Shown here: positions 42,090-61,407 of the stretch, piece by piece
How the letters are laid out: the number at the start of each line of letters is the position of its first letter
Position numbering within the stretch: the first letter of the stretch is position 1
Origin: Kribbella rubisoli
GTDB lineage: Bacteria > Actinomycetota > Actinomycetes > Propionibacteriales > Kribbellaceae
Assembly (NCBI RefSeq): GCF_004217145.1
Contig: NZ_SHKR01000011.1
Span: 1,116,001 to 1,180,000 of the forward strand
Reading direction: 5' to 3'
Length of the DNA: 64,000 nucleotides
Notes under the pieces: generated by a model
Told to the model about the DNA's origin: nothing
The model's database searches: none
Seen by the model: the letters and a program-made list of their open reading frames with translations, nothing else
Position numbers and translations under genes: made by a program

Positions 42090-42133
42090 CTTGGCGCCCA
42101 CCCCTGCCCGCCCGCACAGAGTTGGTGACCCCC

Positions 42134-44683: not shown

Positions 44684-44693
44684 GGAGATGCCC

Positions 44694-45977
44694 ATGAAGC
44701 GACGTAGTTTGCTCGCCGGCGCCGGTGCGCTGGCCGCCGCACCGCTGATCGACGTACCGGCCGCCCAAGCCGCAGACCCCGCGTCGAAGCGCAAGGTGAT
44801 GACCGGTGCCGAGGTGCTGGCGAAGGACGGCTGGCGGGCGCTGGCCGGGCAGAAGGTCGGTGTGATCAGCAACCCGACCGGGATCCTGCCGGACTACCAG
44901 CACATCGTCGACACGATGCACGCGTCCGGGAAGGTGAACATCGTCGCGGTGTTCGGCCCCGAGCACGGCTTCCGCGGCAGCGCGCAGGCGGGCGGTTCGG
45001 AGGGCGACCACGTCGACCCGCGCACCGGGATCATGGTCTACGACGCGTACGGCGCGAACGCCGACAAGCTGGCCGGCCTGTACGCGAAGTCCGGCGTCGA
45101 GACCGTCGTCTTCGACATCCAGGACGTCGGCGCGCGCTTCTACACCTACATCTGGACGATGTTCGAGGCGATGCTGGCCGCGGTCCGCACCGGCGCGAAG
45201 TTCGTCGTACTCGACCGCCCGAACCCGGTCGGCGGCTACGCGCGCGGTCCGATGCTGAAGCCCGGATACACCTCTGGCGTCGGCAAGAAGGAGATCGTCC
45301 AGCAGCACGGTATGACCGTCGGCGAGCTGGCCCGCATGTTCAACGCGGAGTACCTGCCGCTCGAGCCGAACGGCGGCCGGCTGAAGGAACTGCAGGTCAT
45401 CGAGGTGTCGAACTGGAAGCGCGACCAGTTGTACGACGACACCGGGCTGACCTGGGTGATGCCCAGCCCGAACATGCCGACCCCGGACACCGCACTGGTG
45501 TACCCGGGCCTGTGCCTGTTCGAGGCGACCAACATGTCCGAGGGCCGCGGTACGACGCGGCCGTTCGAGCTGATCGGCGCGCCGTACGTCGACTACCGGT
45601 GGGCCGAGGCGCTGCAGACCAAGCACATCCCGGGTGTCGCGTTCCGGGAGGCGTACTTCACGCCGACGATCAGCAAGAACGCCAACGTGCTCTGCGGCGG
45701 CGTACAGGTCCAGATCACCGACCCGCACAGCGTCGAGGCGATCACCGCGGCGACGCACATGATCGTCGAGGCCCGTAAGCTCTACCCGGAATTCACCTGG
45801 CGGGAGGAGACCCCACCCGGCCGGTGGATCGATCTCCTGACCGGCTCCGATCGGTTCCGGACCATGCTTTTGGCGGATGCGACCGCCGAGGAGATCGTGG
45901 CAGCCTGGAAGCCCGACACCGACGCCTGGACGGCGCGGCGGGCGAAATACCTTCTGTACAAGGGCGCGCACCGATGA
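44694..45977 (+). CDS. exo-beta-N-acetylmuramidase NamZ-like (GH171, DUF1343)
   Basis: Secreted protein of 427 residues with a Tat-like signal (MKRRSLLAGAGAL) and the GH171/DUF1343 signature: NPTGILPDYQHIVD, VFGPEHGFRG, FDIQDVGARFYTYIW, LDRPNPVGG and MPSPNMPTPDT. The NamZ family removes terminal MurNAc from peptidoglycan fragments. It complements the upstream GH3 (GlcNAc) enzyme. ATG at 44694 with GAGGAG six bases upstream. The next gene overlaps by ATGA. Confidence 0.9.
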   Translation: MKRRSLLAGAGALAAAPLIDVPAAQAADPASKRKVMTGAEVLAKDGWRALAGQKVGVISNPTGILPDYQHIVDTMHASGKVNIVAVFGPEHGFRGSAQAGGSEGDHVDPRTGIMVYDAYGANADKLAGLYAKSGVETVVFDIQDVGARFYTYIWTMFEAMLAAVRTGAKFVVLDRPNPVGGYARGPMLKPGYTSGVGKKEIVQQHGMTVGELARMFNAEYLPLEPNGGRLKELQVIEVSNWKRDQLYDDTGLTWVMPSPNMPTPDTALVYPGLCLFEATNMSEGRGTTRPFELIGAPYVDYRWAEALQTKHIPGVAFREAYFTPTISKNANVLCGGVQVQITDPHSVEAITAATHMIVEARKLYPEFTWREETPPGRWIDLLTGSDRFRTMLLADATAEEIVAAWKPDTDAWTARRAKYLLYKGAHR

Positions 45978-47698
45978 GACGGCTGGCGGCGCTCACGATT
46001 GCTTCGGCGGTGATGGTGACGATGGGAACGCCTGCAGTTGCTGGCGGCAACAATTCGGGCCGGTTCGACCACCCCTACGACGGGTACGCGCCGAAGTCGA
46101 CGCTGCTGCGTGACTCGACCCCGGCTGCCGCGGGTCTCGACCCGGCGCCGATCGACGCGGCCCTGGCCCAGGTCGCGGGCTGGACGAAACCGAGCGGTAC
46201 GACGAAGCCGCTGTACGCCGGCGCGGTCACGCTGCTCGGCCACGACGGGAAGGTCGTCACCCGGACGGCCACCGGCATGGCGCTGAAGTACGCCGACGGC
46301 GCCGGCACCGAACTGCCGCCCGACCAGCAGATCCCGATGCGGACCGACACGATCTTCGACATGGCGTCGGTGTCCAAGCTGTTCACGTCCATCGTCGTGC
46401 TGCAACTCGTCGAGAAGGGCAAGATCGACCTGGACGCGCCGATCGCGACGTACGTCCCGGAGTTCGCGGAGAACGGCAAGGAGACCGTCACGGTCCGGAT
46501 GGCGCTGACGCACACCAGCGGCTTCCCGTCCTGGCTGCCGCTGTGGAGCTCGCAGCCGGACCCGGCGTCACGGCTGCACATGGCGCTGACCGCGAAGCTG
46601 CAGAACCCGCCCGGCTCGACGTACCTCTACAGCGATCTGAACCTGATCTCGCTCGGCGAGGTCGCACACCGGGTGACCGGCAAGACGCTGGACAAGCTGG
46701 TCGCCGACGGCATCACCAAACCGCTGCAGATGCGCGACACCGGCTACAACCCGGACCCGAAGAAGAAGCCCCGGATCGCGGCCACGGAGTACCAGACCTC
46801 GCCGCCGCGCGGGATGGTGTGGGGCGAGGTGCACGACGAGAACGCCTGGTCGCTGGGCGGAGTCGCCGGACATGCGGGCGTTTTCAGTACTGCGGACGAC
46901 CTCGCCGTACTGGCGCAGACGTTCCTGAACGGCGGCAGCTACCGCGGCGCGCGGATCCTCAAGGAATCCTCCGTCACTGCGATGATCACGAACTTCAACC
47001 AGGGCTTCCCGGGGAACGACCACGGCCTCGGCTTCGAGCTCAACCAGCGCTGGTACATGGGCGGACTGTCCGGACCGCGCGCGGCCGGCCACACCGGGTA
47101 CACCGGCACGTCGATCGTGATCGACTTCGACTCGCGGTCGTTCGCGATCCTGCTGACCAACCGGGTCCACCCGAGCCGCGACTGGGGCAGCAACAACCCA
47201 GCCCGTCGCGCTGTCACCCAGGGGCTCGCATTGGCCCTCGGCGTCGGCCCGCGCCACGGCAAGGACGCCTGGTTCTCCGGTACGACGGACAACGCGACGA
47301 CGACGCTCTCCACGAAGGTCGCCGTACCGGCGGGCGGAGCGAAGCTGGCCTTCGACCTGTTCGTCGACACCGAGGACTCCGATCTGCTGTATCTGGAGTC
47401 TTCGACCGACGGGGCCACTTGGAACAAGGTGCCTTTCACAGTGCGCGATCGCGGGTCCGTGGTGGACCACGACGGGTCGATCAGCGGCTCCGGCGACCGG
47501 CACTGGCATCAAGTCACAGCGGAGCTCGGCGCCGGTGACCAGACGATCCGCTGGCGGTACACGAGCGACCCGCTGTACCAGGGCCGCGGTGTCTACGTCG
47601 ACGGTGTGAAGATAACGAGCGGGAATGGTGAACTTCTCGACGGTGAACGAACGCCTGAATCATTTACCGCAACAGGTTGGAGACTTTCGCGTCGGTGA
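45974..47698 (+). CDS. secreted serine hydrolase (class C beta-lactamase / esterase family)
   Basis: Exported enzyme of 574 residues. A signal peptide (about 1-24) is followed by a beta-lactamase-type domain with SVSK (Ser-x-x-Lys), YSDLN (Tyr-x-Asn) and GHTGYTG (KTG-like). A C-terminal beta-sandwich module (about 430-574, e.g. TLSTKVAVPAGG, YLESSTDGATWNKVP) resembles a carbohydrate- or adhesion-type domain. The family includes D-Ala carboxypeptidases, amidases and esterases. In this operon it may trim peptide or acetyl groups from muropeptides. Confidence 0.87.
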   Translation: MRRLAALTIASAVMVTMGTPAVAGGNNSGRFDHPYDGYAPKSTLLRDSTPAAAGLDPAPIDAALAQVAGWTKPSGTTKPLYAGAVTLLGHDGKVVTRTATGMALKYADGAGTELPPDQQIPMRTDTIFDMASVSKLFTSIVVLQLVEKGKIDLDAPIATYVPEFAENGKETVTVRMALTHTSGFPSWLPLWSSQPDPASRLHMALTAKLQNPPGSTYLYSDLNLISLGEVAHRVTGKTLDKLVADGITKPLQMRDTGYNPDPKKKPRIAATEYQTSPPRGMVWGEVHDENAWSLGGVAGHAGVFSTADDLAVLAQTFLNGGSYRGARILKESSVTAMITNFNQGFPGNDHGLGFELNQRWYMGGLSGPRAAGHTGYTGTSIVIDFDSRSFAILLTNRVHPSRDWGSNNPARRAVTQGLALALGVGPRHGKDAWFSGTTDNATTTLSTKVAVPAGGAKLAFDLFVDTEDSDLLYLESSTDGATWNKVPFTVRDRGSVVDHDGSISGSGDRHWHQVTAELGAGDQTIRWRYTSDPLYQGRGVYVDGVKITSGNGELLDGERTPESFTATGWRLSRR

Positions 47699-47734
47699 CC
47701 CCACTTCGTGCATAGTCGCCGTACCGTGGCTGTC

Positions 47735-48622
47735 ATGAATTCAACAACCTCTCCAGAACCCACGGGGCCGCTGCTGGTCCGGGTCCGCGCGGTGATGCCC
47801 GCGCTGGCCCCGGCCGAGCAGCGGGTGGCGAACGCGGTCCTCGCTGACCCGGGCGGAGTGGCGGCGATGACGATCTCCGAACTGGCCGAGGTGGCCTCCA
47901 CCTCGGAGACCACGGTCATCCGGTTCTGCAAGCAGATCGGGGTCCCCGGCTATCCGCAGCTCCGCCTGCAGCTGGCGGCGCAGTCGGCGACGGAGAGCCT
48001 CCGTCCCGAGGTGGGCGGGGACATCGAGCCGGGCGACTCGCTGGCCGACGTGGTCAGCAAGGTCGCGTTCGCCGACGAGCGGGCGGTCCGCGAGACGGCC
48101 CAGCAGATCGACGTCGACGCGCTGGCCAAGGTCGTCGACGCGGTGGTCAAGGCACCGCGGGTCGATCTGTACGGTTTCGCCGCGAGCGCGTTCGTGGCGC
48201 TGGACCTGCAGCAGAAGCTGCACCGGATCCGGCGGGTGGCGTTCGCGTGGTCCGACGTACACATCGCGCTGACCAGCGCCGCGCTGCTCGGTGAGGGCGA
48301 CGTCGCGATCGGTATCTCGCACACCGGCACCACGGTCGAGGTCGTCGAGGCGCTCGAGGAGGCGGCCAAGCACGGCGCCACCACGGTCGCGGTGACAAAC
48401 TTCCCACGCTCGCCGCTCGCCCGGACGGCGGATCTCGTGCTGACCACGGCCGCGCGCGAGACGACGTACCGCTCGGGGGCGATGGCTTCGCGGATCGCAC
48501 AACTGACGGTGATCGACTGCCTGTTCATCGGGGTCGCCCAGCAGGTGCTGCCGGACGCCCGGAAGGCGCTCGAGGAAACCGCCAGCGCGGTCCGCGGGCA
48601 CCGACTCAAGGGATCCGAGTGA
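47735..48622 (+). CDS. murR: MurR/RpiR-family transcriptional regulator
   Basis: Regulator of 295 residues. The N-terminal RpiR helix-turn-helix (about 10-85, TISELAEVASTSETTVIRFCKQIG) is joined to a C-terminal SIS sugar-phosphate-binding domain (LYGFAASAFVALDLQQKL, GISHTGTTVEVVE). Located between the muramidase genes and murQ, it should sense MurNAc-6-phosphate or a related sugar phosphate and control this locus. The ATG at 47735 is chosen by alignment of the domain start; the ribosome site is weak. Confidence 0.85.
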   Translation: MNSTTSPEPTGPLLVRVRAVMPALAPAEQRVANAVLADPGGVAAMTISELAEVASTSETTVIRFCKQIGVPGYPQLRLQLAAQSATESLRPEVGGDIEPGDSLADVVSKVAFADERAVRETAQQIDVDALAKVVDAVVKAPRVDLYGFAASAFVALDLQQKLHRIRRVAFAWSDVHIALTSAALLGEGDVAIGISHTGTTVEVVEALEEAAKHGATTVAVTNFPRSPLARTADLVLTTAARETTYRSGAMASRIAQLTVIDCLFIGVAQQVLPDARKALEETASAVRGHRLKGSE

Positions 48623-48653
48623 GATCTACTGTTCCGTCAAAGATCAACGGAAT

Positions 48654-48666
48654 TGAAAATCCTTCA
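48654..48666. promoter_or_regulatory. TGAA-N5-TTCA inverted repeat before murQ
   Basis: Short inverted repeat in an AT-rich 66-bp gap upstream of murQ, of the general type bound by RpiR regulators. Likely operator or promoter element for murQ; weak on its own. Confidence 0.35.
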
Positions 48667-48688
48667 GTAGAAAACTAACATCGATCCT

Positions 48689-49582
48689 GTGACCTCACCG
48701 ACCGAGCAGCGCAACCCGAGGACGCTCGCCATCGATGCGGTGGGCACGTCCGAGATCCTCCAGATGCTGAACAACGAGGACGCCCGCGTCGCGGGTGCCG
48801 TCAGTGCAGTGATCCCGGAGCTGACCAAGGCCGTCGACGCCGCCGTCGAGGCGGTCCGCGGCGGCGGCCGGGTGCACTACTTCGGCGCTGGTACGTCGGG
48901 ACGCCTGGCGGTCCTGGACGCCGCCGAGCTGCTGCCCACGTTCCACGTGCCCGACGGACTGGTGGTCGCCCACCACGCCGGCGGGATGGAGGCGCTGCTG
49001 CGCGCGGTCGAGAACGTCGAGGACTCCGAGGACGGCGGCGCCGCTGATGCGGCCGCGGTCACGGGTCAGGACCTCGTCGTCGGCCTCGCCGCTTCCGGAA
49101 GCACGCCGTACGTCGCCGGCGCTCTGAAGGCCGCCCGCGCGGCCGGGGCGACCACCGTGCTGGTCACGTCGAACCCGGACGCCCCGCTGGCGCCGCTGGC
49201 CGACGTCGTGATCGCCGCGGACACCGGCCCCGAGGTCATCGCCGGCTCGACCCGGCTGAAGGCCGGCACCGCGCAGAAGATGATCCTGAACGCGTTCTCG
49301 ACGACGCTGATGATCAAGCTCGGCCGGACCTGGTCCAACCTGATGGTCGACCTGGTCGCGACCAACAAGAAGCTCCGCGGCCGGATGCTGCGCATCCTCG
49401 CCGAGGCCACCGGCGCCGACGAGGCCGCCTGCGAAGCGGCCCTGGCCGAGGCCGACGGCGAGCTCAAGCCCGCCCTCGTCCACCTCCTCACGGGTACGCC
49501 GATCGCCGCGGCTCGCGCCGCGCTGGAGTCCGCGCACGGCCGGGTGGCCACCGCCCTCGCCGAACTCGGCACCCACGCCTGA
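48689..49582 (+). CDS. murQ: N-acetylmuramic acid 6-phosphate etherase
   Basis: Cleaves the lactyl ether of MurNAc-6-P, giving GlcNAc-6-P and lactate, in peptidoglycan recycling. 297 residues, GTG start. The SIS-domain motifs GAGTSGRLAVLDAAELLPTF, ASGSTPYVAGAL, AGSTRLKAGTAQKMILN and NLMVDLVATNKKL are diagnostic of MurQ. Together with the MurR-like regulator and the two upstream secreted glycosidases, it makes a full degrade-and-reuse route for MurNAc, although a MurNAc kinase or PTS gene is not in the window. Confidence 0.94.
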   Translation: MTSPTEQRNPRTLAIDAVGTSEILQMLNNEDARVAGAVSAVIPELTKAVDAAVEAVRGGGRVHYFGAGTSGRLAVLDAAELLPTFHVPDGLVVAHHAGGMEALLRAVENVEDSEDGGAADAAAVTGQDLVVGLAASGSTPYVAGALKAARAAGATTVLVTSNPDAPLAPLADVVIAADTGPEVIAGSTRLKAGTAQKMILNAFSTTLMIKLGRTWSNLMVDLVATNKKLRGRMLRILAEATGADEAACEAALAEADGELKPALVHLLTGTPIAAARAALESAHGRVATALAELGTHA

Positions 49583-50893: not shown

Positions 50894-52378
50894 CTAGACG
50901 GAGATATCCACCGATGGGCGGAGCTTGGCGGCCGCGGCCAGGGCGTCGTGCGCCGGGTTGTCCTCGAAGTCCTTGACCAGCGTGGGGTCCGCGGGGCGGT
51001 CGAGGTGCGGGAGCGCGATCTGCTCGTACGCCGCCTGGAAGCGCGGGCCCCAGCGGCGAGTGCCGAGGCGGGCGGTGCGGGAGCAGTTGTCGACCATGTA
51101 CGCGACGTCGCGGGCGTGCATGTACGGCAGCAGCGAGTCGACCGCCTCGATCACCGACTCGTTCACGATCTCCGACCACGCGTGCCCGCGGGCGGCGAAC
51201 TCGTCGACCTGCGCCATCATCGTCGCGACGAACAGCCCGGCAGTCACGGCATCCACGCCCGCGACGCCATCGCCCTCACTCCCGCCATACCAAACCGTAT
51301 GGTCTGGTGTTCCGCGGCGGGCGTGGACCTCAGTGCTGTGCGACCACATCGGGCTGCCGCCGATCTCGGTCATCGGCCGGGTCGCGAGCCGCTGCTCGGC
51401 CAGGATCACGCTCCGCAATTCGGTGCCGTCGGCAACTTCATCGTAGATCTCCGCGACCAGGTCACGCGCCGGCCGGTACGCCGCGGAGTACGCGCGATCG
51501 AACAGGTCCTGATCCCCGCAGGCCGCGCGGACAGCGACCAGGCCGTCGTTCGAGATCGTCCGCGCGATCGGCCCGGTGATCGCCTCGGTGGAACGCTCGT
51601 ACGCCGTCACCGGATCAGCCCCGTCGATCCGGAAGTACCTGTACATCGCCTCCACCAGCCCGTGGACGGCGCCGAGCAGGATCGCCCGCTCACCGACGAT
51701 GTCGGACCGGTACTCGTCGGCCAGCGTGGTCGCGAACGTGTACGGCGACCCGAGCCCGATCGACCACGCCAGCGCCCGATCCCACCCGTGGCCGTCAGGA
51801 TCCGCATGGACGGCGATACTCGCGTTGATCCCGGCCCCGTTGACCGTCGCACCCTGCTGGTACAGGCGCCGTACCGAATCGCCCATCCCCTTCGGACACA
51901 CCGCGATCACCGGATGTCCCGCCGGGAAGTCGCTGCCGATCGCCGTCAGGTGCCCCAAGAGGAAACCGTGGGACAGCCCAATGGTCGCGCCGGGCTTGAG
52001 CACGGCGAAGATCTGCTCGTGGTTCGCCGCCAGCGCCGCATCCGCGATCAGCAGAATCACCAGATCCGAAGCCGCGGCGACCTCCAGCCAGTCCCCCAGC
52101 GTCCCGTCGTCCTCGCTGAAACCCTGCGCCCGCGCGTCCTCCGCCGACGCCGAGCCCGGCCGTAGACCGACGCTCACAGTGATCCCGGTCCCGGCGAGCG
52201 AGTCCCGCAGATTCAACGCCTGCGCCCGCCCCTGCGGCCCCCAGCCCAGTACACCGATGCGCTCCACCCCATGCAGCGCTTCCGGCAGCAGCGGGAACAG
52301 GTCCCGCCCACCCCGGACGATGGACTCCGTCCCACCCGGCACGACCATGCTCTCGACCTGAAACACCGAACTCTTCAT
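50894..52378 (-). CDS. ketol-acid reductoisomerase, class II, plant-type
   Basis: NADPH-dependent branched-chain amino-acid enzyme of 494 residues. The N-terminal Rossmann motif is GVLGWGPQGRAQALNLRDSL. Then come GLSHGFLLGHL, AVCPKGMGDSVRRLY, GAGINASIAVH, KSD-like YRSDIVGERAILLGAVHG, IVNESVIEAVDSLLPYMHAR, VDNCSRTARLG and the extreme C-terminus KLRPSVDISV. These follow chloroplast KARI more closely than E. coli IlvC. Actinobacteria usually carry the 330-340-residue class I IlvC, so this is probably an acquired second copy. The ATG at 52378 is the first in-frame one near GAAGGC. Confidence 0.85.
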   Translation of the reverse strand: MKSSVFQVESMVVPGGTESIVRGGRDLFPLLPEALHGVERIGVLGWGPQGRAQALNLRDSLAGTGITVSVGLRPGSASAEDARAQGFSEDDGTLGDWLEVAAASDLVILLIADAALAANHEQIFAVLKPGATIGLSHGFLLGHLTAIGSDFPAGHPVIAVCPKGMGDSVRRLYQQGATVNGAGINASIAVHADPDGHGWDRALAWSIGLGSPYTFATTLADEYRSDIVGERAILLGAVHGLVEAMYRYFRIDGADPVTAYERSTEAITGPIARTISNDGLVAVRAACGDQDLFDRAYSAAYRPARDLVAEIYDEVADGTELRSVILAEQRLATRPMTEIGGSPMWSHSTEVHARRGTPDHTVWYGGSEGDGVAGVDAVTAGLFVATMMAQVDEFAARGHAWSEIVNESVIEAVDSLLPYMHARDVAYMVDNCSRTARLGTRRWGPRFQAAYEQIALPHLDRPADPTLVKDFEDNPAHDALAAAAKLRPSVDISV

Positions 52379-52591
52379 GCCTTCAGTCAAAGCCGATCAG
52401 GGACGTTGCAACAAGCGCAACTTCTGCATCACCCCGTTGCAGCTTGCGAAACACAGTCCGTACCGGAGGACCTTTGGCGGCCAGGAAGAGGGCTTGCGGC
52501 CTTGGCACTCGACGTCATCAGCCGCTTACTTTGAGCTTGGTTCTCCCCGAGCACGGGGAGCCGCCATCAGAAGGTCAACGGGGAGCACAGC

Positions 52592-53237: not shown

Positions 53238-54329
53238 CTAGCCTTCGAGGCCGACGACCTTCAGGACGCTCGGCCAAGCTTTCATGGCAGCGACCAGAGC
53301 GGGGTCCTGGATCGTCGCCAGCGCCTCTGCGTACGCGCCTTCGAGTACGTCGGCGACGCGGACGATCTCGCCGGTGTCGGCGGAGCGTACGGCGGCTTCG
53401 ACCATGGCGAGGCTTACCACGTTGGAGTGGACTTCGGATTGCGGGGTTGTCGACGTACGGACCGCGTTGACGAACTCGACCAGCGAGCCGGCGATCTCCT
53501 GGGGCTCGTCGGACATGGTGGCGGGGAGGGGCTCGCCGGACGTGAGCTCGGCGACGGGTGCGTTGTCGCCGTCCCAAGTCGCCGTACCGCCGGCGGTGCT
53601 CGCGCGCCAGAAGCCGTTCCAGGACGTCTCCAGGCCGGGCGCGCACCAGCTGCCGTCGAAGGAGAAGCGGGTGCCGTCGGCGTACGTGAAGATCGCGGAC
53701 GCGGCGGCGTTGCCGTCGAACCAGCTCCACGGCGGGTTGTACGAGTCGCAGTACACCGAGACCGGCTCCGACCCGATGAGCTTGCGGGAGAGGTCGAACT
53801 GGTGGATCGCCATGTCGACGAGGAGCGGCTCGGCCATGCGTTCGCGGAAACCGCTGAAGTGCGGTGCTTTGTAGAACTCGCACGACAGCGTGCCGATCGG
53901 GCCGAGCTCGGCGAGCTGACGTTGGAAGGCTGCTACGGCGCGGAAGTAGCGGCGGGACTGCGAGACCATAAGGAGTTTGCCGCTGACCTCGGAGGCCGCG
54001 ACCATCTGGAGGCACTCGCGGACTGTCTCGGCCAGTGGCTTCTCGCACATCACCGGGAGGCCGCGGAGCAGTGCGTCGACGCTGACTTTCGGATGCGCTA
54101 CCGGGACGGTGACGTCGATGACCGCCTCCGCATCCTTGCTCAGTTCGTCGATCGAGGTCGCGATGGGGAGGTCGGTGAAGCCGTGCTGGTCGGCGGCGGC
54201 GCGGGCGGTTTCGAGGTCGAGGTCTACGAGGCCGACCAGTTGTACGTCGGGATTGGCGGCGATCGTGCGGAGCCAGGCGCGGCCCATGCCGCCGGCGCCG
54301 ACCTGGAGGAGACGCAAGGGGTCAGGCAT
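53238..54329 (-). CDS. Gfo/Idh/MocA-family oxidoreductase
   Basis: NAD(P)-dependent sugar or inositol dehydrogenase of 363 residues. The N-terminal Rossmann motif is LQVGAGGMGRAW, and the catalytic region contains MCEKPLAETV with the conserved Lys. The C-terminal alpha/beta domain binds substrate. It overlaps the ThuA gene by 8 bp and is the last gene of the LacI-controlled sugar operon. The substrate is an unknown carbohydrate brought in by the adjacent ABC system. Confidence 0.88.
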   Translation of the reverse strand: MPDPLRLLQVGAGGMGRAWLRTIAANPDVQLVGLVDLDLETARAAADQHGFTDLPIATSIDELSKDAEAVIDVTVPVAHPKVSVDALLRGLPVMCEKPLAETVRECLQMVAASEVSGKLLMVSQSRRYFRAVAAFQRQLAELGPIGTLSCEFYKAPHFSGFRERMAEPLLVDMAIHQFDLSRKLIGSEPVSVYCDSYNPPWSWFDGNAAASAIFTYADGTRFSFDGSWCAPGLETSWNGFWRASTAGGTATWDGDNAPVAELTSGEPLPATMSDEPQEIAGSLVEFVNAVRTSTTPQSEVHSNVVSLAMVEAAVRSADTGEIVRVADVLEGAYAEALATIQDPALVAAMKAWPSVLKVVGLEG

Positions 54330-55092
54330 CCGCAGGCTCCTCGATCGGACCCTTGTAACCCTGACCGTTGAAGAAGTCGTCGGTCTCGTACCGCAGCAGC
54401 GTCGGCAACGCCCGCTCCGGCAGATCGGTGCGAGCCCACTTCACGCCGTTCGCGATCACCCTGCGGACGTCCTTGTGGTGGTACACCGGGAAGTCCTGGT
54501 CGCCGGGTGAGAAGTAGAAGATCTTCCCGTGCCCGCGGCGGAACGTGCAGCCCGAGCGGAACACCTCGCCGCCGGAGAACGACGACACGAAGATCAGCTC
54601 GTCGGGCACCGGGATGTCGAAGAACTCGCCGTACATCTCCTGCTGCTCGATCACGATCGGGTGCGGGACGCCCTGGGCGATCGGGTGCGTCGGGTTCACC
54701 GTCCAGACCAGCTCGCGGTCGCGTTCACTGCGCCAGCGCAGGGTGCACGTCGTACCCATCAGCTTGCCGAAGATCTTGGACCAGTGACCGGAGTGCAGCA
54801 CGACCAGCCCCATCCCCGAGAGCACGTGCTGGTACACGCGGTCGACCACCTTGTCGTCGACCTCACCGTGCGCGGCATGCCCCCACCACACGAGTACGTC
54901 GGTCTCGGCCAGCACCTCCTCGGTCAGGCCGTGCTCCGGCTCGTCCAGAGTCGTGGTCGCCACCGTGGCCTCGAGGTTCTCGCGGATGCCGGCGGCGATG
55001 GTCTCGTGCATGCCGTCCGGGTAGATCTCGCGGACGTGCGGCTCGATCTGCTCGTGCCGGTTCTCGCCCCAGACGAGTACTTTCAGCGTCAT
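54322..55092 (-). CDS. ThuA-domain protein
   Basis: ThuA-like protein of 256 residues (glutamine-amidotransferase-like fold). It shows LVWGENRHEQ at the N-terminus, VLVWWGHAAHGEV, GLVVLHSGHWSK and the C-terminal GHGKIFYFSPGDQDFPVYHHKDV. ThuA proteins take part in trehalose or other disaccharide use, and in some clusters act with Gfo/Idh dehydrogenases in a 3-keto-sugar route. Its position between transport and dehydrogenase genes supports that role. Confidence 0.85.
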   Translation of the reverse strand: MTLKVLVWGENRHEQIEPHVREIYPDGMHETIAAGIRENLEATVATTTLDEPEHGLTEEVLAETDVLVWWGHAAHGEVDDKVVDRVYQHVLSGMGLVVLHSGHWSKIFGKLMGTTCTLRWRSERDRELVWTVNPTHPIAQGVPHPIVIEQQEMYGEFFDIPVPDELIFVSSFSGGEVFRSGCTFRRGHGKIFYFSPGDQDFPVYHHKDVRRVIANGVKWARTDLPERALPTLLRYETDDFFNGQGYKGPIEEPADA

Positions 55093-55110
55093 ATTCGTTG
55101 TCCTTAAGGA

Positions 55111-55911
55111 TTATTTGACCGCTCCGCCGATGGCACCGGCGGCGATGTACTTCTGCGCGACGACCAGCAGCACGATGGCCGGGATCGCCGAGAGCACCGC
55201 GGTCGCCATCACCGCGTTCCAGTTCTGCACCTGCGTGCCGAGGTACTGGTAGATCCCCAGCGTCACCGGCCGTACGCCGCCCTTCGTGGTCAGCGTCAGC
55301 GCGAACAGGAAATCGCTCCAGGAGAAGAGGAAACTGAACAGCCCCGCGGTGATGAGCGAGTTCTTGCTGATCGGCAGCACGATCGCCACGAACGCCCGGA
55401 ACAGCCCGGCGCCGTCCACCCGCGCGGCCTCCACCAGTGACGGCGGCAGCGACATCATGAACGAGCGCAGGATCAGGATCGCGAACGGGATCCCGCTGCT
55501 GCAGTTCGCCACGATCAGGCCCGGGATCGAGTTCAGCAGCCCGATCCGTTCGTAGGCCGTGTACAACGCGTTCGCGATCACGATCCCCGGGATCATCTGC
55601 GAGATCAGGATCGCCAGCAGCCCGATCGACACCCAGCGGGACCGGAACTGCGAGAGCGCGTACGCACACGGTGTCGCGATCGCGAGACTGAGTACGACGG
55701 TCCCGGCCGCGATGATCATGCTGGTGACCAGGTTGCCGCCCTGCTCGTCGAGGGCGCGTTTGTAGCCGGTGAACGTCGGGTGCAACGGCAGGAATCCCGC
55801 GGTCAACGTGTTCCCGGACGGCTGCAGGGACGCGTTGACCATCCAGTAGACCGGGAACAGCATCACGGCAAGGATCACGATCCCGATGACGGTGTACGCC
55901 GTACGTCGCAT
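55111..55911 (-). CDS. carbohydrate ABC transporter permease (MalG/ThuG-type)
   Basis: Inner-membrane permease of 266 residues with six helices. The EAA-loop is EAARVDGAGLFRAFVAIVLPISKNSLIT, which contacts the ATPase. It lies 9 bp after the other permease gene. No ATPase gene is in the operon, so it probably uses a shared MsiK-type ATPase, as is common in actinobacteria. Confidence 0.9.
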   Translation of the reverse strand: MRRTAYTVIGIVILAVMLFPVYWMVNASLQPSGNTLTAGFLPLHPTFTGYKRALDEQGGNLVTSMIIAAGTVVLSLAIATPCAYALSQFRSRWVSIGLLAILISQMIPGIVIANALYTAYERIGLLNSIPGLIVANCSSGIPFAILILRSFMMSLPPSLVEAARVDGAGLFRAFVAIVLPISKNSLITAGLFSFLFSWSDFLFALTLTTKGGVRPVTLGIYQYLGTQVQNWNAVMATAVLSAIPAIVLLVVAQKYIAAGAIGGAVK

Positions 55912-55920
55912 GCTGCCCTC

Positions 55921-56859
55921 CTACTCGTCGACTGCGCGGCGGGTGCTGCGCAGGTAGAAGATCGCGAACACGAACGAGATCGCGATGAGGATGTTGCTCA
56001 GCGCCGCGCCCTGCCCGAACTTGAAGTCCACAAAGGACTTCTCGTACGACTGGGTCGCGAGCGTCTGCGTCGCGTTCGCCGGCCCGCCGCCGGTCAGGCC
56101 GAGGATGATGTCCAGGACCTTGATCGTGTAGACGACCCCGAGCATCAGCACCACGCCCGCCACCGAGCGCAGGTTCGGCCAGGTGATGTGGACGAACGCG
56201 CGCCATCCGGTCGCACCGTCGAGTTGGCCGGCTTCGTACAGCTCGTCCGGGATCTCGCTGAGACCGGAGTACAGCAGCGTGACGTTGAACGGGATGCCGA
56301 TCCAGATGTTCACGCCGATCACCGCGATCAGCGCGACCGACGGCGAGTTCAGCCACGGCACCGGATCGTCGACGATATGCAGGCCCATCAGGGTCCGGTT
56401 CAGGATGCCGCTGTCCTGCTCGAGGATCGAGCGCCAGGTCGCACTCGACACGATCAGCGGCAGCAGCCACGGCAGCAGGAGCAGTGAGCGCAGCAGGCCG
56501 CCGAGCGGGAAGCGATTCCGGAAGAACAGTGCCAGGCCGAGCCCGATCACGAACTGGAACGCGATCGACCCGACCGTGAACAGCGCGGTGTTGAGCATCG
56601 CGTCCGCGAACAGCTTGTCGTGCACGACCGTGGAGTAGTTCTGCAGCCCGACCCACGGCGCGGCCCCGGTGAAGAACGTCTTCAGGGTGTAGTCCTGCAG
56701 ACTCATCAGCAGGTTCTTCACCACCGGGTAGCCGAACAGCGCGACCATCGCCACCGCGGCCGGCAGCACGAACAGGAGCTTGGTCAGGTCCTCGCCCCGG
56801 CGGCGCCGGCCGCGAACTCGCTCGCGGCCGGCCACCGTCGTACGTGTCAGCGCCACCAT
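55921..56859 (-). CDS. carbohydrate ABC transporter permease (MalF/ThuF-type)
   Basis: Permease of 312 residues with a basic cytosolic N-terminus (RERVRGRRRRGE) and six helices. The EAA-loop reads YEAGQLDGATGWRAFVHITWPNLR. It starts 3 bp after the binding-protein gene stop. It pairs with the downstream permease for sugar uptake. Confidence 0.9.
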   Translation of the reverse strand: MVALTRTTVAGRERVRGRRRRGEDLTKLLFVLPAAVAMVALFGYPVVKNLLMSLQDYTLKTFFTGAAPWVGLQNYSTVVHDKLFADAMLNTALFTVGSIAFQFVIGLGLALFFRNRFPLGGLLRSLLLLPWLLPLIVSSATWRSILEQDSGILNRTLMGLHIVDDPVPWLNSPSVALIAVIGVNIWIGIPFNVTLLYSGLSEIPDELYEAGQLDGATGWRAFVHITWPNLRSVAGVVLMLGVVYTIKVLDIILGLTGGGPANATQTLATQSYEKSFVDFKFGQGAALSNILIAISFVFAIFYLRSTRRAVDE

Positions 56860-56862
56860 GGA

Positions 56863-58098
56863 TCAGCCTCCGGACGCCTGCTTGAAGGCGTCCTGGGGCG
56901 AGGCCTTACCGGTCAGCGCCAGCTGGATGGCCTGGTAGATCACCTTCGCCGCATCCGGCCACTTGTCGCCGAGTTTGCCGGTGCGGGACCGGGCGGTCTT
57001 CACCTGCTCGGTGAAGGCCTTCATCGACGGCACTTCCTTGACGTACTGGTCGAGCAGCGCGGTCTTGGTCGGGATGGTGAACCGGGCCTTCGCCCAGTCC
57101 AACTCGTTCTGGTCCGAGTTCAGGCACTTCACGAAGTCCGCGGCCTTCTGCTGCTTGGCCTGGTCCTTGTTCAGCGGGACCGTCCAGGCCTCGCCGCCGA
57201 GCGGCGCGACCGGCGTCTGATCCGGCTTGTTCACCGGGAACGTGACCACGTCCCACTTGATCTTGGGGTTCTTGTTCAGCGACGGGATCTGCCACGGGCC
57301 GTTGACCATCATCGCGGCCTTGCCGGCGATGAACTGGTCGTTGACGTCGCCCTGGGTCCAGTTGATCACGCTCTTGCTCGCGGACCCCGACTTGACCAGA
57401 TCCGTCCACAATTGCAGGGCTTCGGCCACCTGCGGGCTGGTCAGGTCGGTCTCGTCGCCGCCGTTGGTCCACATCGCCGGCAGGAACTGCCAGGAGCCCT
57501 CGTACGTCGCGTTGGCGTTGAACGCCATCCCGTACCGGCCGGGCTTGGTGAGCTTCTTGGCCGCGGCCTTCAGCTCGTCCCAGGTCTTCGGCGGTTGTAC
57601 GCCGGCCTCGGCCAGCATGTCCTTGTTGTAGAACAACGCGATCGTGTTCGTCACCGGGGCCAGCCCGTAGAGCTTGCCCTGGTACGACGTCGCGTCGACC
57701 ATGCCCTTGATGACTCCGTCGCCGGTCAGACCCAGGTCGTTCAGCGGCGCGAGCGCACCGGTCGCGGCGATCTGCTGTACGTCGGGGTTGTCGAGCATCA
57801 GCACGTCGGGCAGCGTCTTCGAGGACGCCTGCTGCAGCACCTTCTGGATCAAGGTGTCACCAGGCACCGTCTCCCGCTGGATCGTGATGCCGAGCTGCGT
57901 CGCGCACGAGTCAAGTCCCTTCTGCACAAGGGATTTGTCCGGGTCGTTGTTGTAGTAGTCCAGGATCGTGAGGCTCTTGACGCTGTCGCCGGACGAGGAC
58001 GACGACTTGCTGCCGCCGCCGTTGTCGCCGCAGGCGACCAGCAGGAGCGACACCGTCGTCGCACCCGCCAGCGCGGCGGCGATCCGCTTGCTGATCAT
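56863..58098 (-). CDS. sugar ABC transporter substrate-binding lipoprotein
   Basis: Extracellular solute-binding protein family 1, 411 residues. The lipoprotein signal ends in LLVACGDN. The mature protein has the typical two-lobe pattern (SLTILDYYNNDPDK, GKLYGLAPVTNTIALFYNKDM, MMVNGPWQIP). First gene of the operon, divergent from the LacI gene, with operators between them. The sugar is unknown; the ThuA/Gfo-Idh context suggests a disaccharide or inositol-like substrate. Confidence 0.9.
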   Translation of the reverse strand: MISKRIAAALAGATTVSLLLVACGDNGGGSKSSSSSGDSVKSLTILDYYNNDPDKSLVQKGLDSCATQLGITIQRETVPGDTLIQKVLQQASSKTLPDVLMLDNPDVQQIAATGALAPLNDLGLTGDGVIKGMVDATSYQGKLYGLAPVTNTIALFYNKDMLAEAGVQPPKTWDELKAAAKKLTKPGRYGMAFNANATYEGSWQFLPAMWTNGGDETDLTSPQVAEALQLWTDLVKSGSASKSVINWTQGDVNDQFIAGKAAMMVNGPWQIPSLNKNPKIKWDVVTFPVNKPDQTPVAPLGGEAWTVPLNKDQAKQQKAADFVKCLNSDQNELDWAKARFTIPTKTALLDQYVKEVPSMKAFTEQVKTARSRTGKLGDKWPDAAKVIYQAIQLALTGKASPQDAFKQASGG

Positions 58099-58114
58099 GA
58101 CATCGGACTCCTTC

Positions 58115-58124
58115 TAAGCGTTTA
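58115..58124. promoter_or_regulatory. LacI-type operator 1 (sugar operon)
   Basis: TAAGCGTTTA, a near-palindrome of the LacI-family type, 16 bp upstream of the binding-protein start. Confidence 0.6.
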
Positions 58125-58169
58125 ACCAAGGGACGAGGAAAACCTGTGATGCTCTTGTCGATTGGGCGG

Positions 58170-58180
58170 TAAACCGCTTA
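58170..58180. promoter_or_regulatory. LacI-type operator 2 (sugar operon)
   Basis: TAAACCGCTTA, similar to operator 1, between the divergent binding-protein and LacI genes. Two sites suggest control of both directions. Confidence 0.6.
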
Positions 58181-58245
58181 ACTGAGGCGTTGAAGGACTA
58201 TGTTCCGTAGGTCACATCGCTGTCAAGAGTTCAGAGAGGGAATCG

Positions 58246-59310
58246 ATGGTCACGATGCGGGACGTCGCTCAGCGTGCCGGTGTTTCGATCGCGACCGTCT
58301 CGTTCCTGCTGAACGACACCAAGCCGGTGACGGCTGCGACCCGGGCGCGGATCGAGCAGGCGATGGTCGAGCTCGGATACCGCCGCAACATGGTGGCCCG
58401 CGCGCTGGCCAGTCGGCGTACCCACATCATCGCGATGGCGTACCCGGCGCTCGAGCACAAGTTCGGGATGTCCACGGCCGAGTTCTTCACCAGCGCGGCC
58501 GAGGCGGCCCGCAAGGAGGATTACCACCTGGTGCTGTGGCCGGTCGGCAACGACGGGGTCGAGCTACGCGAGCTGCTCGGGCAGGGCCTGGTGGACGGCG
58601 TCGTCCTGATGGAGGTGCAGCTGGACGATCCGCGGGTCGACGTACTGCAGCAGGCCGGGACGCCGTTCGCGTTGATCGGCCGGACGACCGAGCTCGAGGG
58701 TTTGTCGCACGTGGACATCGACTTCGACACGACGGTCGAGGATGCGGTCAAGCATCTGTACGACCACGGGCATCGCGAAATGGCCTTGATTTCGGGCGAT
58801 CTGGACGACCCGCGCTTCCACGATTACGGTCCCTGGGTTCGGACCGAGGACGCTTATCGCCGGGTCGCGGCGTCGTACGGGCTGCCGGTCGTCGTACTGC
58901 CCTGCTCGGACACCACTCAGGCCGGCAAGCTCGCCGCGGAACGCTTACTGGCCGAGCATCCCGAGACGACAGCGATGCTGGTCCTGAACGAGTACGCCGC
59001 GCTCGGCGTCGTGTCCGGCCTGCGGCGCAGCGGCCGCGACATCCCGGCCGACATGTCGGTCCTGTCCCTGCTGATGGTCCCGGAAACCGCGGCGATGACA
59101 GACCCCGAGCTCACGATGATGCGGACCCCGGGTCCCGAACTCGGCCAGCTCGGCACCGAAGCCCTCATCCGCGAACTCGAAGGCGCCGACCCACTCCCAC
59201 CCCAACTGGTCCCGGCCAAACTGTTCCCGGGAGCGACGGTCACAGCCCCCAAAGCGCCGCAACCAAAGGCCTCCGCAGGTCGCCGCGCCGCACGCAAAGC
59301 CCGATCGTAA
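58246..59310 (+). CDS. LacI-family regulator of the sugar operon
   Basis: Regulator of 354 residues. The N-terminal HTH is MRDVAQRAGVSIATVSFLLND, followed by the hinge RRNMVARALASRRTHII and a sugar-binding domain. The ATG at 58246 has GAGGGA upstream. It is divergent from the ABC/ThuA/Gfo-Idh operon and should repress it through the two TAA-type operators. Its 3' end overlaps the convergent IlvY-like gene by 71 bp. Confidence 0.9.
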   Translation: MVTMRDVAQRAGVSIATVSFLLNDTKPVTAATRARIEQAMVELGYRRNMVARALASRRTHIIAMAYPALEHKFGMSTAEFFTSAAEAARKEDYHLVLWPVGNDGVELRELLGQGLVDGVVLMEVQLDDPRVDVLQQAGTPFALIGRTTELEGLSHVDIDFDTTVEDAVKHLYDHGHREMALISGDLDDPRFHDYGPWVRTEDAYRRVAASYGLPVVVLPCSDTTQAGKLAAERLLAEHPETTAMLVLNEYAALGVVSGLRRSGRDIPADMSVLSLLMVPETAAMTDPELTMMRTPGPELGQLGTEALIRELEGADPLPPQLVPAKLFPGATVTAPKAPQPKASAGRRAARKARS

Positions 59311-60061
59311 GCGGCTCCAACTCCCCCGGCACCTCGACGAGCTGCTCCCGCACAACCGACGACTCCAGCACCAGCCGCGGCACGACTCCTGTCCCACATC
59401 CGAGGGCTACCAGGGCGAGCAGCGCTTCATGCCCATCCGGCTCGGCTGCAATCGTTGGCTTCGTCCCAGTCTTGCGGAACCAGCGGTACGCCGCCTCGCG
59501 GACGAGCCCTCGCGCCGGCACGACGTACGAGCCGTCTGGTTCGGTGTCCCGCGTGTGGACCAGCACGAGATCTGTGACCGCGACCGTTCGACTTACCAAC
59601 GTCTGCGGCAGGCGCTTCGGGATGCCGGCGACTGCCGCATCCACCTCGCCCTCGTCGAGTCGCGCGAGCGCGGCGGCCGCGTCACCCGTCCGTACGTCGA
59701 GCCGGATCTGCGGATGCGTTGCGCGCAAGGGCTTGAGAAGGTCAGGCAGCAGTGTCTGGCATGCCGTGACTGTGGCGAAGATCCGCAGGTCGCCGGTCAG
59801 CCCGACCGGCTCGTCGGACGCCGCTCGATAGTCGTCCCACAGCTCCAGCGCCTGCTCGGCGTACGCCGTGAACCGGCGACCCTCTTCGGTCAGTACGACG
59901 CCCCGCGGTCCCCGATCCAGCAACCGCGCGCCGACCCGCGTCTCCAGTCGCTGGATCGTGCGGGTCAGCGTCGCCGCGCTGACGTGGCATTCGAGGCTGG
60001 TGCGTCCGTAGTTCAGCGTCCGCGCCAAATGCAGGAACAGCTCCAGCTCTCGATGCTCCAC
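59240..60061 (-). CDS. LysR-family regulator, IlvY-like
   Basis: LysR regulator of 273 residues. The winged HTH covers about 1-60 (ELFLHLARTLNYGRTS, LTRTIQRLE). The effector domain follows the IlvY pattern: GDLRIFATVTACQTLLPDLL, RTGDAAAALARLDEGEVDAAVAG, and GHEALLALVALGCGTGVVPRLVLE near the C-terminus. IlvY activates ilvC in response to acetohydroxy acids. Here it shares one base with the glmM stop (TAGTG), so it is coupled to glmM, while the KARI gene lies about 7 kb away. The target gene is inferred. Confidence 0.8.
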   Translation of the reverse strand: MEHRELELFLHLARTLNYGRTSLECHVSAATLTRTIQRLETRVGARLLDRGPRGVVLTEEGRRFTAYAEQALELWDDYRAASDEPVGLTGDLRIFATVTACQTLLPDLLKPLRATHPQIRLDVRTGDAAAALARLDEGEVDAAVAGIPKRLPQTLVSRTVAVTDLVLVHTRDTEPDGSYVVPARGLVREAAYRWFRKTGTKPTIAAEPDGHEALLALVALGCGTGVVPRLVLESSVVREQLVEVPGELEPLTIGLCVRRGDLRRPLVAALWGL

Positions 60062-61407
60062 TACAACTTCAGCGAAGTCGCAACCACGTCGGCCAGTGAA
60101 TGGGCGATCTCGTGTGCGGTGTCCGAGGACTCGGCCTCGACCATGACGCGGACGAGCGGCTCGGTGCCCGACGGGCGCAGCAGGACCCGGCCGGTGTCGC
60201 CCAGGCGGTTCGTCGCCTCGGCCACGGCAGACTGGACCGCGGCGTCGGTGCCCGCGCGGTCCTTGTCCACGTCCTTCACGTTGACCAGGACCTGCGGGAG
60301 GCGGGTCATCGCGCCGGCCAGGTCGGCCAGGCTCTTCCCCGTCTGCGCGATCCGGGCCAGCAGCATGACCGCGGTCAGCGTGCCGTCGCCGGTGGTGGCG
60401 TGGTCGGACAGGATCACGTGCCCGGACTGCTCACCGCCGAGCTTGTGGCCGCCGGCCTTCATTGCCTCGAGCACGTACCGGTCGCCGACCTTGGTCTGCT
60501 CGACCGCAATCCGCTCCCGCACCATCGCCTGGACGAAGCCCAGGTTGCTCATCACGGTCGCAACGACCGTGTCGTTCGACAGCCGGCCGCTGTCGCGCAT
60601 CGCGAGCGCCAGTACGGCGAGGATCTGGTCGCCGTCGACGAGCTCGCCGCTCGCGTCCACCGCCAGGCAGCGGTCCGCGTCGCCGTCGAGCGCGATGCCG
60701 ACGTCGGCGCGGTGACCGATCACCTCACGCTGCAGACCCTCGATATGCGTGGATCCGCAGTTCAGGTTGATGTTCAGGCCATCCGGAGCCGCGGCAACCG
60801 TGACCACCTCGGCGCCGAGCCGGCGCAGTGCCTCCGGCGCGGTCTGCGAGGCCGCGCCGTTGGCGCAGTCGATGACGACCTTGAGACCGTCGAACCGGTT
60901 CGGGGCCGAGCGGACCAGGTGCGAGACATATGTCTCGAAGCCCTGCCCGTCGTCGGTGACCCGGCCCACGGCAGCGCCGGTCGGACGCTGCCACTCCTCG
61001 TTCATCCGGGCCTCGATGGCGTCCTCGATCACGTCGTCGAGCTTGATCCCGCCGCGGGCCAGGAACTTGATGCCGTTGTCCGGCATCGGGTTGTGGCTGG
61101 CGGACAGCATCACACCGAGATCGGCGCCGGTCGAGCCGGTCAGGTACGCGACGGCCGGGGTCGGCAGTACGCCGAGCCGGACGACGTCGACGCCGGCGCT
61201 GGCAAGACCAGCGACAACGGCGGCTTCGAGGAACTCACCACTGGCACGAGGATCCCGGCCCACAACGGCGCGCGGCCGGTGCCCTTCGAAGGCACCGGCC
61301 TCGCCGAGTACGTGAGCTGCCGCGACCGAGAGGTCGAGCGCCAGCTCCGCGGTCAGGTCCACGTTCGCCAGGCCACGGACTCCGTCCGTGCCGAACAAAC
61401 GCCCCAT
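60061..61407 (-). CDS. glmM: phosphoglucosamine mutase
   Basis: Interconverts glucosamine-6-P and glucosamine-1-P for peptidoglycan and UDP-GlcNAc. 448 residues. The start [12 protein letters not shown] is invariant in GlmM. The phosphoserine loop is [13 protein letters not shown], the metal loop [11 protein letters not shown] and the sugar loop GGEQSGHVI, with a C-terminal [12 protein letters not shown]. It sits 7 bp after rpsI in the conserved rplM-rpsI-glmM order. Confidence 0.97.

Follow-up and report, generated by a model that had tools for sequence, protein, structure and literature searches.

The 64,000-nucleotide stretch of the Kribbella rubisoli genome analyzed here (contig NZ_SHKR01000011.1; the window) carries a gene, which we call KARI2, predicted to encode a ketol-acid reductoisomerase (KARI) of the plant class II type. 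Judged from its sequence and context, KARI2 appears to be one half of an ilvY-ilvC unit, a pairing that is new, and it is probably an accessory, substrate-induced second KARI that works beside the housekeeping class I IlvC of the same genome under an IlvY-type regulator. The first-pass annotation had drawn attention to the gene itself; the regulatory unit, its rearrangement, and a second group of plant-type sequences (clade B) are new.

The features of the locus are as follows.

50894..52378, minus strand: KARI2, plant-type class II ketol-acid reductoisomerase, 494 aa (open reading frame, Pfam, alignment, model)
52406..52420, minus strand: inverted repeat IR3, TTGCGCTTGTTGCAA (TTGC-N7-GCAA), its strict core conserved across loci
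52415..52429, minus strand: weak repeat IR2, ATGCAGAAGTTGCGC, 9 bp upstream of IR3 and overlapping it (offset scoring)
52437..52451, minus strand: repeat IR1, TTTCGCAAGCTGCAA, 31 bp upstream of IR3 (offset scoring, conservation)
53238..59310: block between KARI2 and ilvY, comprising a Gfo/Idh/MocA oxidoreductase, a ThuA-like protein, two ABC permeases, a solute-binding protein, and a LacI-family regulator
59240..60061, minus strand: ilvY, IlvY-type LysR regulator, 273 aa (NCBIfam, alignment to Escherichia coli IlvY)
60061..61407, minus strand: glmM, phosphoglucosamine mutase, immediately upstream of ilvY (TIGR01455, 568.7 bits; cut-off 447.55)

The KARI2 Gene and Its Predicted Product

The reading frame spans 50894..52390 on the minus strand and opens with TTG; an ATG at 52378 gives a protein of exactly 494 residues, with the C-terminus KLRPSVDISV. 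Pfam searches identified KARI_N (2.2e-28) and, in two stretches, KARI_C (3.8e-28), the latter representing a duplicated C-terminal domain. The best solved relatives are the enzymes of rice (3fr7, E = 3.4e-158; 55% identity) and spinach (1qmg, 1.8e-157; 54% identity), which align with KARI2 from end to end, whereas the other 35 of the 37 matched sequences, including class I and E. coli class II enzymes, cover mainly its N-terminal part. All four curated NCBIfam ilvC models score KARI2 under their cut-offs, and the protein therefore lies outside the usual bacterial ilvC models. An AlphaFold model built with a 20-row alignment (pLDDT 90.9, pTM 0.91) has a predicted fold that scores TM 0.94 against spinach KARI (1yve) and 0.68 against the E. 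coli enzyme (3ulk).

The spinach residues D315, E319, E492, E496, S518, K252, and H226, which we take to serve in magnesium or substrate binding or in catalysis, correspond to D230, E234, E411, E415, S437, K167, and H141 of KARI2, and R162, S165, and S167, presumably the NADPH-phosphate residues, correspond to R77, S80, and S82; all are invariant in an alignment of seven rows (A1). In length, duplicated C-terminal domain, end-to-end similarity, and catalytic, magnesium, and NADPH-phosphate residues, KARI2 thus has the features of a plant-type class II KARI, and we assign it to that type on this basis, with KARI activity predicted. The frame, the Pfam domains, the alignments, and the fold go well past what chance could produce and bear out the first-pass annotation in this respect, which had placed a plant-type class II KARI of about 494 residues at 50894-52378. 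The likeness to the chloroplast enzymes of spinach (1yve/1qmg) and rice (3fr7) covers length, domain duplication, mapped active-site residues, and fold, and extends to the C-terminal RPSVDISV that KARI2 has in common with spinach KARI (RPTVDISV in rice). KARI2 differs from the plant enzymes in having no transit peptide, in its predicted IlvY-type bacterial regulation, in its identity of 54-55%, and in belonging to a separate clade.

Median dN/dS values for three classes of pairs among 23 Kribbella sequences, a set that excludes locus L033, where a contig end cuts the gene, are 0.13, 0.16, and 0.17, with a maximum of 0.25. The median is 0.13 where KARI2 and ilvY are separated and 0.16 where they are divergent (see below), indicating purifying selection in both arrangements. 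These ratios rule out a functionless relic, and KARI2 is, by this measure, an intact gene under purifying selection in Kribbella.

A Second KARI Beside Class I

The K. rubisoli assembly of 8.64 Mb also encodes a class I KARI of 346 aa, on a different contig from KARI2, so the genome holds two KARIs. The class I ilvC follows ilvB and ilvN, which encode the large and small subunits of acetolactate synthase, with serA, leuB, and ilvE further on; this is the separate class I ilvC with ilvBH that the first-pass annotation had proposed looking for, and its presence rules out KARI2 as the sole KARI. Actinobacterial class I IlvC shares with KARI2 its presumed reaction; it is unlike KARI2 in its length, in its place behind ilvB and ilvN, and in the absence of a TTGC-N7-GCAA site from the 505 bases upstream of and at the ilvB start.

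Class I KARI occurs in 38 of 38 Kribbella genomes and KARI2 in 24 of them, and 26 of 28 sampled KARI2 carriers also have class I; class I KARI was not found in the other two, a draft Streptomyces ipomoeae genome and an Armatimonadetes metagenome-assembled genome (MAG) that, at 2.1 Mb, may be incomplete.

The IlvY-Type Partner Regulator

The LysR-family protein encoded at 59240..60061 scores 251.8 bits against the NCBIfam IlvY model NF008722 (cut-off 246) and shares 36% identity with E. coli IlvY across 292 aa. Genes around the 80 named loci, which are the best 80 of 429 KARI2 relatives (see below), were called by a simple GC-frame script and then clustered. The LysR (IlvY) cluster was found in 67 of 81 loci (the 80 and the window), the next commonest cluster apart from KARI in 38, and the IlvY cluster alone, besides KARI, recurs in over half of the loci. 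Three members that were scanned, the window's included, all pass the curated IlvY threshold. In the 66 loci with calls for both genes, KARI and ilvY lie on opposite strands in 59 and on the same strand in seven.

The two genes also occur together across genomes. In Kribbella, their sets are identical, comprising the same 24 of 38 genomes, and a search of 295 Streptomyces genomes found an ilvY match in 25 of the 26 that carry a plant-type KARI, the exception being the one with a clade B copy; in one of these genomes (G677), KARI2 and ilvY are both fragments, on different contigs. Six Streptomyces genomes have an ilvY-like match without KARI2, five of them at 59-60% identity. Four of these five loci (all except that of G756) were examined, and neither a KARI nor a TTGC-N7-GCAA site was found nearby, so these ilvY-like genes look like paralogues. 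In Streptomyces G600, an ilvY fragment alone (locus L164, 7947-9068) lies among genes like those around the Streptomyces KARI2, and KARI2 was not found in that genome at 1e-60; it looks as if KARI2 and ilvY were lost together there. Within Kribbella, the ilvY match of G012 is split into two pieces in different frames, and in G002, G011, and G033 only the N-terminal 177-186 residues match, suggesting that ilvY is damaged or diverged in these four genomes.

Operator Repeats Upstream of KARI2

A strict core, TTGCGCTTG-NN-GCAA, is present within 160 bp upstream of KARI in 71 of the 80 loci, and all 71 matches in those loci (3.16 Mb, both strands counted) lie upstream of KARI; 20 rounds of shuffled upstream regions gave zero strict-core matches. 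Four of the nine loci that lack the strict core retain TTGCGCTTG, and one locus without it (L053) has another TTGC-N7-GCAA; in the Armatimonadetes locus, no form of the core was found. The strict core is found in 23 of the 24 Kribbella genomes with KARI2. In the K. rubisoli genome, the exact core occurs once, at KARI2, and allowing one mismatch adds two more places, against five for a reversed control.

Scoring of TTGC-N7-GCAA by offset from IR3 (76 rows, 56 offsets) gave 7.92 of 8 at offset 0, 6.91 at 31, and 4.96 at 9; the mean over 54 offsets, with 0 and 31 excluded and 9 still included, was 1.81. Part of the IR2 score is automatic, because the 9-bp repeat overlaps IR3, the strongest; the 31-bp repeat IR1 provides independent evidence for an IlvY-type operator. 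IR1 is degraded in Kribbella G002 and G011. The same scoring of the E. coli ilvY-ilvC region, counted from its own IR1, gave 8, 6, and 6 at 0, 22, and 31 bp and less than 5 at other offsets up to 45. The accessible text of PMC5002191 places the E. coli operator in three 15-bp repeats centered at -65, -43, and -34. The spacing of the KARI2 repeats thus reproduces the E. coli operator geometry of TTGC-N7-GCAA repeats at 31 bp (weakly at 22/9 bp), and binding by an IlvY-type regulator is predicted.

Locus Organization and Rearrangement

The divergent layout of E. coli ilvY-ilvC is found in many relatives of KARI2, whereas in the window the two genes are about 6.9 kb apart on the same strand and do not form the adjacent, divergent pair of a divergon. 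The GTG start of ilvY in the window overlaps the glmM stop (TAGTG; junction TAGTGGAGCATCG), and ilvY would now be expressed jointly with glmM in this genome; L043 has ATGGAGCATCG adjoining the operator. By coordinates, 13 of the 24 Kribbella genomes have the separated arrangement (about 7 kb) and 11 the divergent one.

In Kribbella with divergent pairs, the intervening block, where present, lies on the far side of ilvY. L045, L049, and L113 have the order (GFO ... LacI) ilvY, KARI2, glmM, with ilvY and KARI2 divergent and with part of the block missing in L049; L046 lacks the block and has the order ilvY, KARI2, glmM; L043 has the block, ilvY, and KARI2 reversed relative to glmM; and in L047 neither the block nor glmM is in view. 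The window and L038 have the order glmM, ilvY, LacI ... GFO, KARI2, LtrA, all on a single strand except LacI and, in the window, a small gene, and L039-L042 and L048 have ilvY and the block as in the window, with glmM not seen. Compared with L043, the window order corresponds to an inversion of the block with ilvY; compared with L113, it corresponds to KARI2 and its operator having changed both place and orientation. The gene orders fit either two inversions that pass through the L043 order or a single relocation of KARI2. A single inversion moving ilvY is too simple an account, as moving KARI2 fits the other Kribbella equally well. Both main repeats, IR1 and IR3, stayed with KARI2 after the rearrangement.

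Mapped onto the KARI2 tree, whose root is weak (the outgroup is one Microlunatus and one Pseudonocardia row), the arrangement requires two changes, against a mean of 8.4 for shuffled labels. This agrees with a single separation followed by a return in G002 and G011; a single origin of the separated arrangement may be compatible with the well-supported branches alone.

Adjoining KARI2 on its other side, positions 42122-49582 encode a GH3 protein that carries an additional nuclease-like domain, a NamZ-type exo-muramidase, an RpiR-type regulator, and a MurQ-type etherase, which together look like a muropeptide-recycling set.

Distribution of Plant-Type KARI

A peptide pattern combined with tblastn found 429 KARI2 relatives in 84,980 species genomes. 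The best 80 comprise 79 actinobacterial sequences and one from an Armatimonadetes MAG; outside the actinobacteria, the wider family is sampled through Armatimonadota alone. Among 394 genomes sampled evenly across the class, with a few candidates per genome scored, two had a match at 1e-40, one of them the K. rubisoli genome itself. Plant-type KARI was found in 26 of 295 Streptomyces genomes (24 full-length at 70-77% identity, one clade B copy at 58%, and one fragment) and in three of 43 Armatimonadota genomes. The main actinobacterial group, clade A, is seen in Kribbella, Microlunatus, Pseudonocardia, Streptomyces, and others, and on these counts the actinobacterial plant-type clade appears uncommon. 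G001 (Kribbella albertanoniae) holds a further plant-type copy at 53% identity.

Carriage by phages or viruses was considered and rejected: a scan of viral contigs gave none, and four phage records match only about 45% of the query at 30-32% identity. Two of the three Armatimonadota loci have plant-type KARI next to genes of branched-chain amino acid synthesis, all above curated cut-offs: L123 (6148-11532) has the order ilvB, KARI, ilvN, leuA, and in L122 (6177-11600) KARI adjoins ilvB, with leuA close by. No ilvB- or leuA-type neighbor was found beside KARI in L124, the third. In L122 and L123, the enzyme is apparently a housekeeping one.

Literature searches on plant-type KARI in bacteria yielded nothing relevant, and among the titles listed, from a collection with few subscription journals, there was none on plant-type KARI with IlvY in actinobacteria. 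A Pseudomonas syringae paper (PMC11760712) is unrelated. A class II KARI has been reported from a "M. tuberculosis" record, where, by the accessible text of PMC8985424, the gene and one from Morganella are 100% identical; this is probably assembly contamination rather than transfer. Like KARI2, it is a class II KARI from an actinobacterial record.

Phylogeny and Origin

The main tree comprises 39 sequences, among them 29 of the 80 named loci and two plant rows, and is unrooted, with no outgroup; L108, which has frame trouble, was left out of the trees. The 29 actinobacterial rows of clade A, with KARI2 among those of Kribbella, form one side of a branch with 100/100 support. On the other side, together with Armatimonadota, the two plant rows join the five actinobacterial rows of clade B at 100/97. 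Within clade A, identities are 62-94%; the plant sequences share 52-58% identity with clade A, 57-61% with clade B, and 56-60% with Armatimonadota. The other two arrangements of the four groups, which were named only after the tree was seen, are rejected (p-AU approximately 0.003 and 0.005); the plant rows differ from the rest in letter make-up, and the plant branch is long. Rows for E. coli class II and for class I, when added, receive branches of length 10, and the root of that tree is therefore not trusted.

That KARI2 was acquired directly from a plant or alga is extremely unlikely. Plant chains are indeed its closest solved structures, but clade A is far more similar internally than to plants and occupies its own side of the fully supported branch, and grouping the plants with clade A is rejected (p-AU 0.005, for post hoc groups, two plant rows, and an unrooted tree). 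Within the sampled set, the plants instead group with the other, rarer actinobacterial group, and a transfer of KARI2 from a plant is not supported; two plant sequences are too few for the direction of donation between plants and bacteria to be determined. The first-pass annotation's chloroplast-type reading thus holds for the type of enzyme and fails for its lineage, clade A being bacterial and separate from the plant sequences (100/100). For its suggestion of an old or unusual transfer, a plant source is not supported, as the plants join clade B within the sampled set; the patchy occurrence of clade A, in which Microlunatus, Pseudonocardia, and Streptomyces rows are interleaved, fits transfer or differential loss among actinobacteria. 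The KARI phylogeny that it had proposed as a check, with placement in a common bacterial class II clade counting against it, puts KARI2 in a bacterial, largely actinobacterial clade; in substance this goes against the annotation, although the clade is uncommon.

Clade B comprises the KARIs of L125 (7995-9458), L126 (9989-11470), L127 (10001-11455), L034 (1501-2940), and L152 (1501-2940), which are, within the sample, the bacterial sequences closest to plant KARI. Three are on large Streptomyces plasmids; MFS transporter genes lie next to one of these and about 4 kb from another, and the record of the third carries no annotation. L034 is the extra copy of K. albertanoniae (G001). No TTGC-N7-GCAA site was found in the clade B and Armatimonadota upstream regions examined.

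E. coli IlvC (L154, 5971-7446) matches Kribbella class I KARI (33% over 324 aa) better than it does KARI2, to which it is 30% identical over the N-terminal domain only (residues 24-267 align); KARI2 has no full-length similarity to it and belongs to a different class II lineage. Because E. coli IlvC is nearer to Kribbella class I than to the plant type, class II KARI may be not one lineage but at least two distant ones.

Proposed Role of KARI2

We propose that KARI2 would convert 2-acetolactate and 2-aceto-2-hydroxybutyrate to the dihydroxy acids with NADPH and magnesium; that the IlvY-type protein (59240-60061) would bind and activate the KARI2 promoter when acetolactate or acetohydroxybutyrate accumulates; and that extra KARI capacity would thus appear when the class I enzyme falls behind. 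IlvC is the only KARI known in E. coli. There, as the accessible texts of PMC6483228 and PMC5002191 describe, IlvY with acetolactate or acetohydroxybutyrate as inducer activates ilvC and represses itself, and the ilvY and ilvC promoters are coupled through supercoiling. A substrate-induced second KARI is the most likely reading because both the regulator type and the operator geometry match this system. E. coli IlvC and KARI2 are not close, and one regulator-operator cassette would therefore serve two class II lineages. The specialized role raised in the first-pass annotation is plausible in these terms.

Two other roles deserve weighing. KARI2 could be a self-resistance or bypass copy that takes over from class I under a natural KARI inhibitor, and the logic of IlvY would suit this, as substrate build-up would induce KARI2 automatically; so would the distance between the two enzymes, which are only about 35% identical, over the N-terminal part only, and the plasmid location of clade B copies (not KARI2), near MFS transporter genes in two. 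Against this, the 18 window genes scanned (40324-62415), which cover sugar transport, muropeptide-recycling types, glmM, ribosomal proteins, and one lone AMP-binding enzyme, show no biosynthetic cluster, and no paper on KARI self-resistance was among the titles that literature searches listed. We regard this role as unlikely for KARI2; it is possible for the clade B KARIs. Still less probable is a role outside branched-chain amino acid synthesis, with a different 2-keto-2-hydroxy acid as the substrate of KARI2 in some special pathway. Streptomyces has KARI paralogues with changed or narrowed substrate use, one of them in the valanimycin cluster (PMC4353338, accessible text), but all residues checked are retained in KARI2, the IlvY pairing points to acetohydroxy acids, and the Armatimonadota copies lie beside acetolactate synthase genes and close to 2-isopropylmalate synthase genes in two of three loci.

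A wider version of the substrate-induced second KARI can be put forward tentatively, though we think it rather doubtful: a sensor-driven bypass in which IlvY would read the build-up of acetohydroxy acids when class I is blocked or outrun and would switch on a block-insensitive KARI of another lineage. The IlvY-operator cassette would then have been kept across phyla while one class II lineage replaced another as its target, and the rearrangement in Kribbella would offer a natural experiment on whether the divergent, supercoiling-coupled arrangement matters.

Significance

KARI is a studied herbicide and antibacterial target, and an inducible second KARI may therefore bear on the tolerance of soil bacteria to inhibitors. 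As Kribbella includes both divergent (11) and separated (13) genomes, supercoiling-coupled transcription of ilvY and ilvC is testable within one genus. An odd plant-like gene is explained as part of a recognizable regulatory unit, and "class II KARI" would seem to be a label for at least two distant lineages with one regulator-operator cassette.
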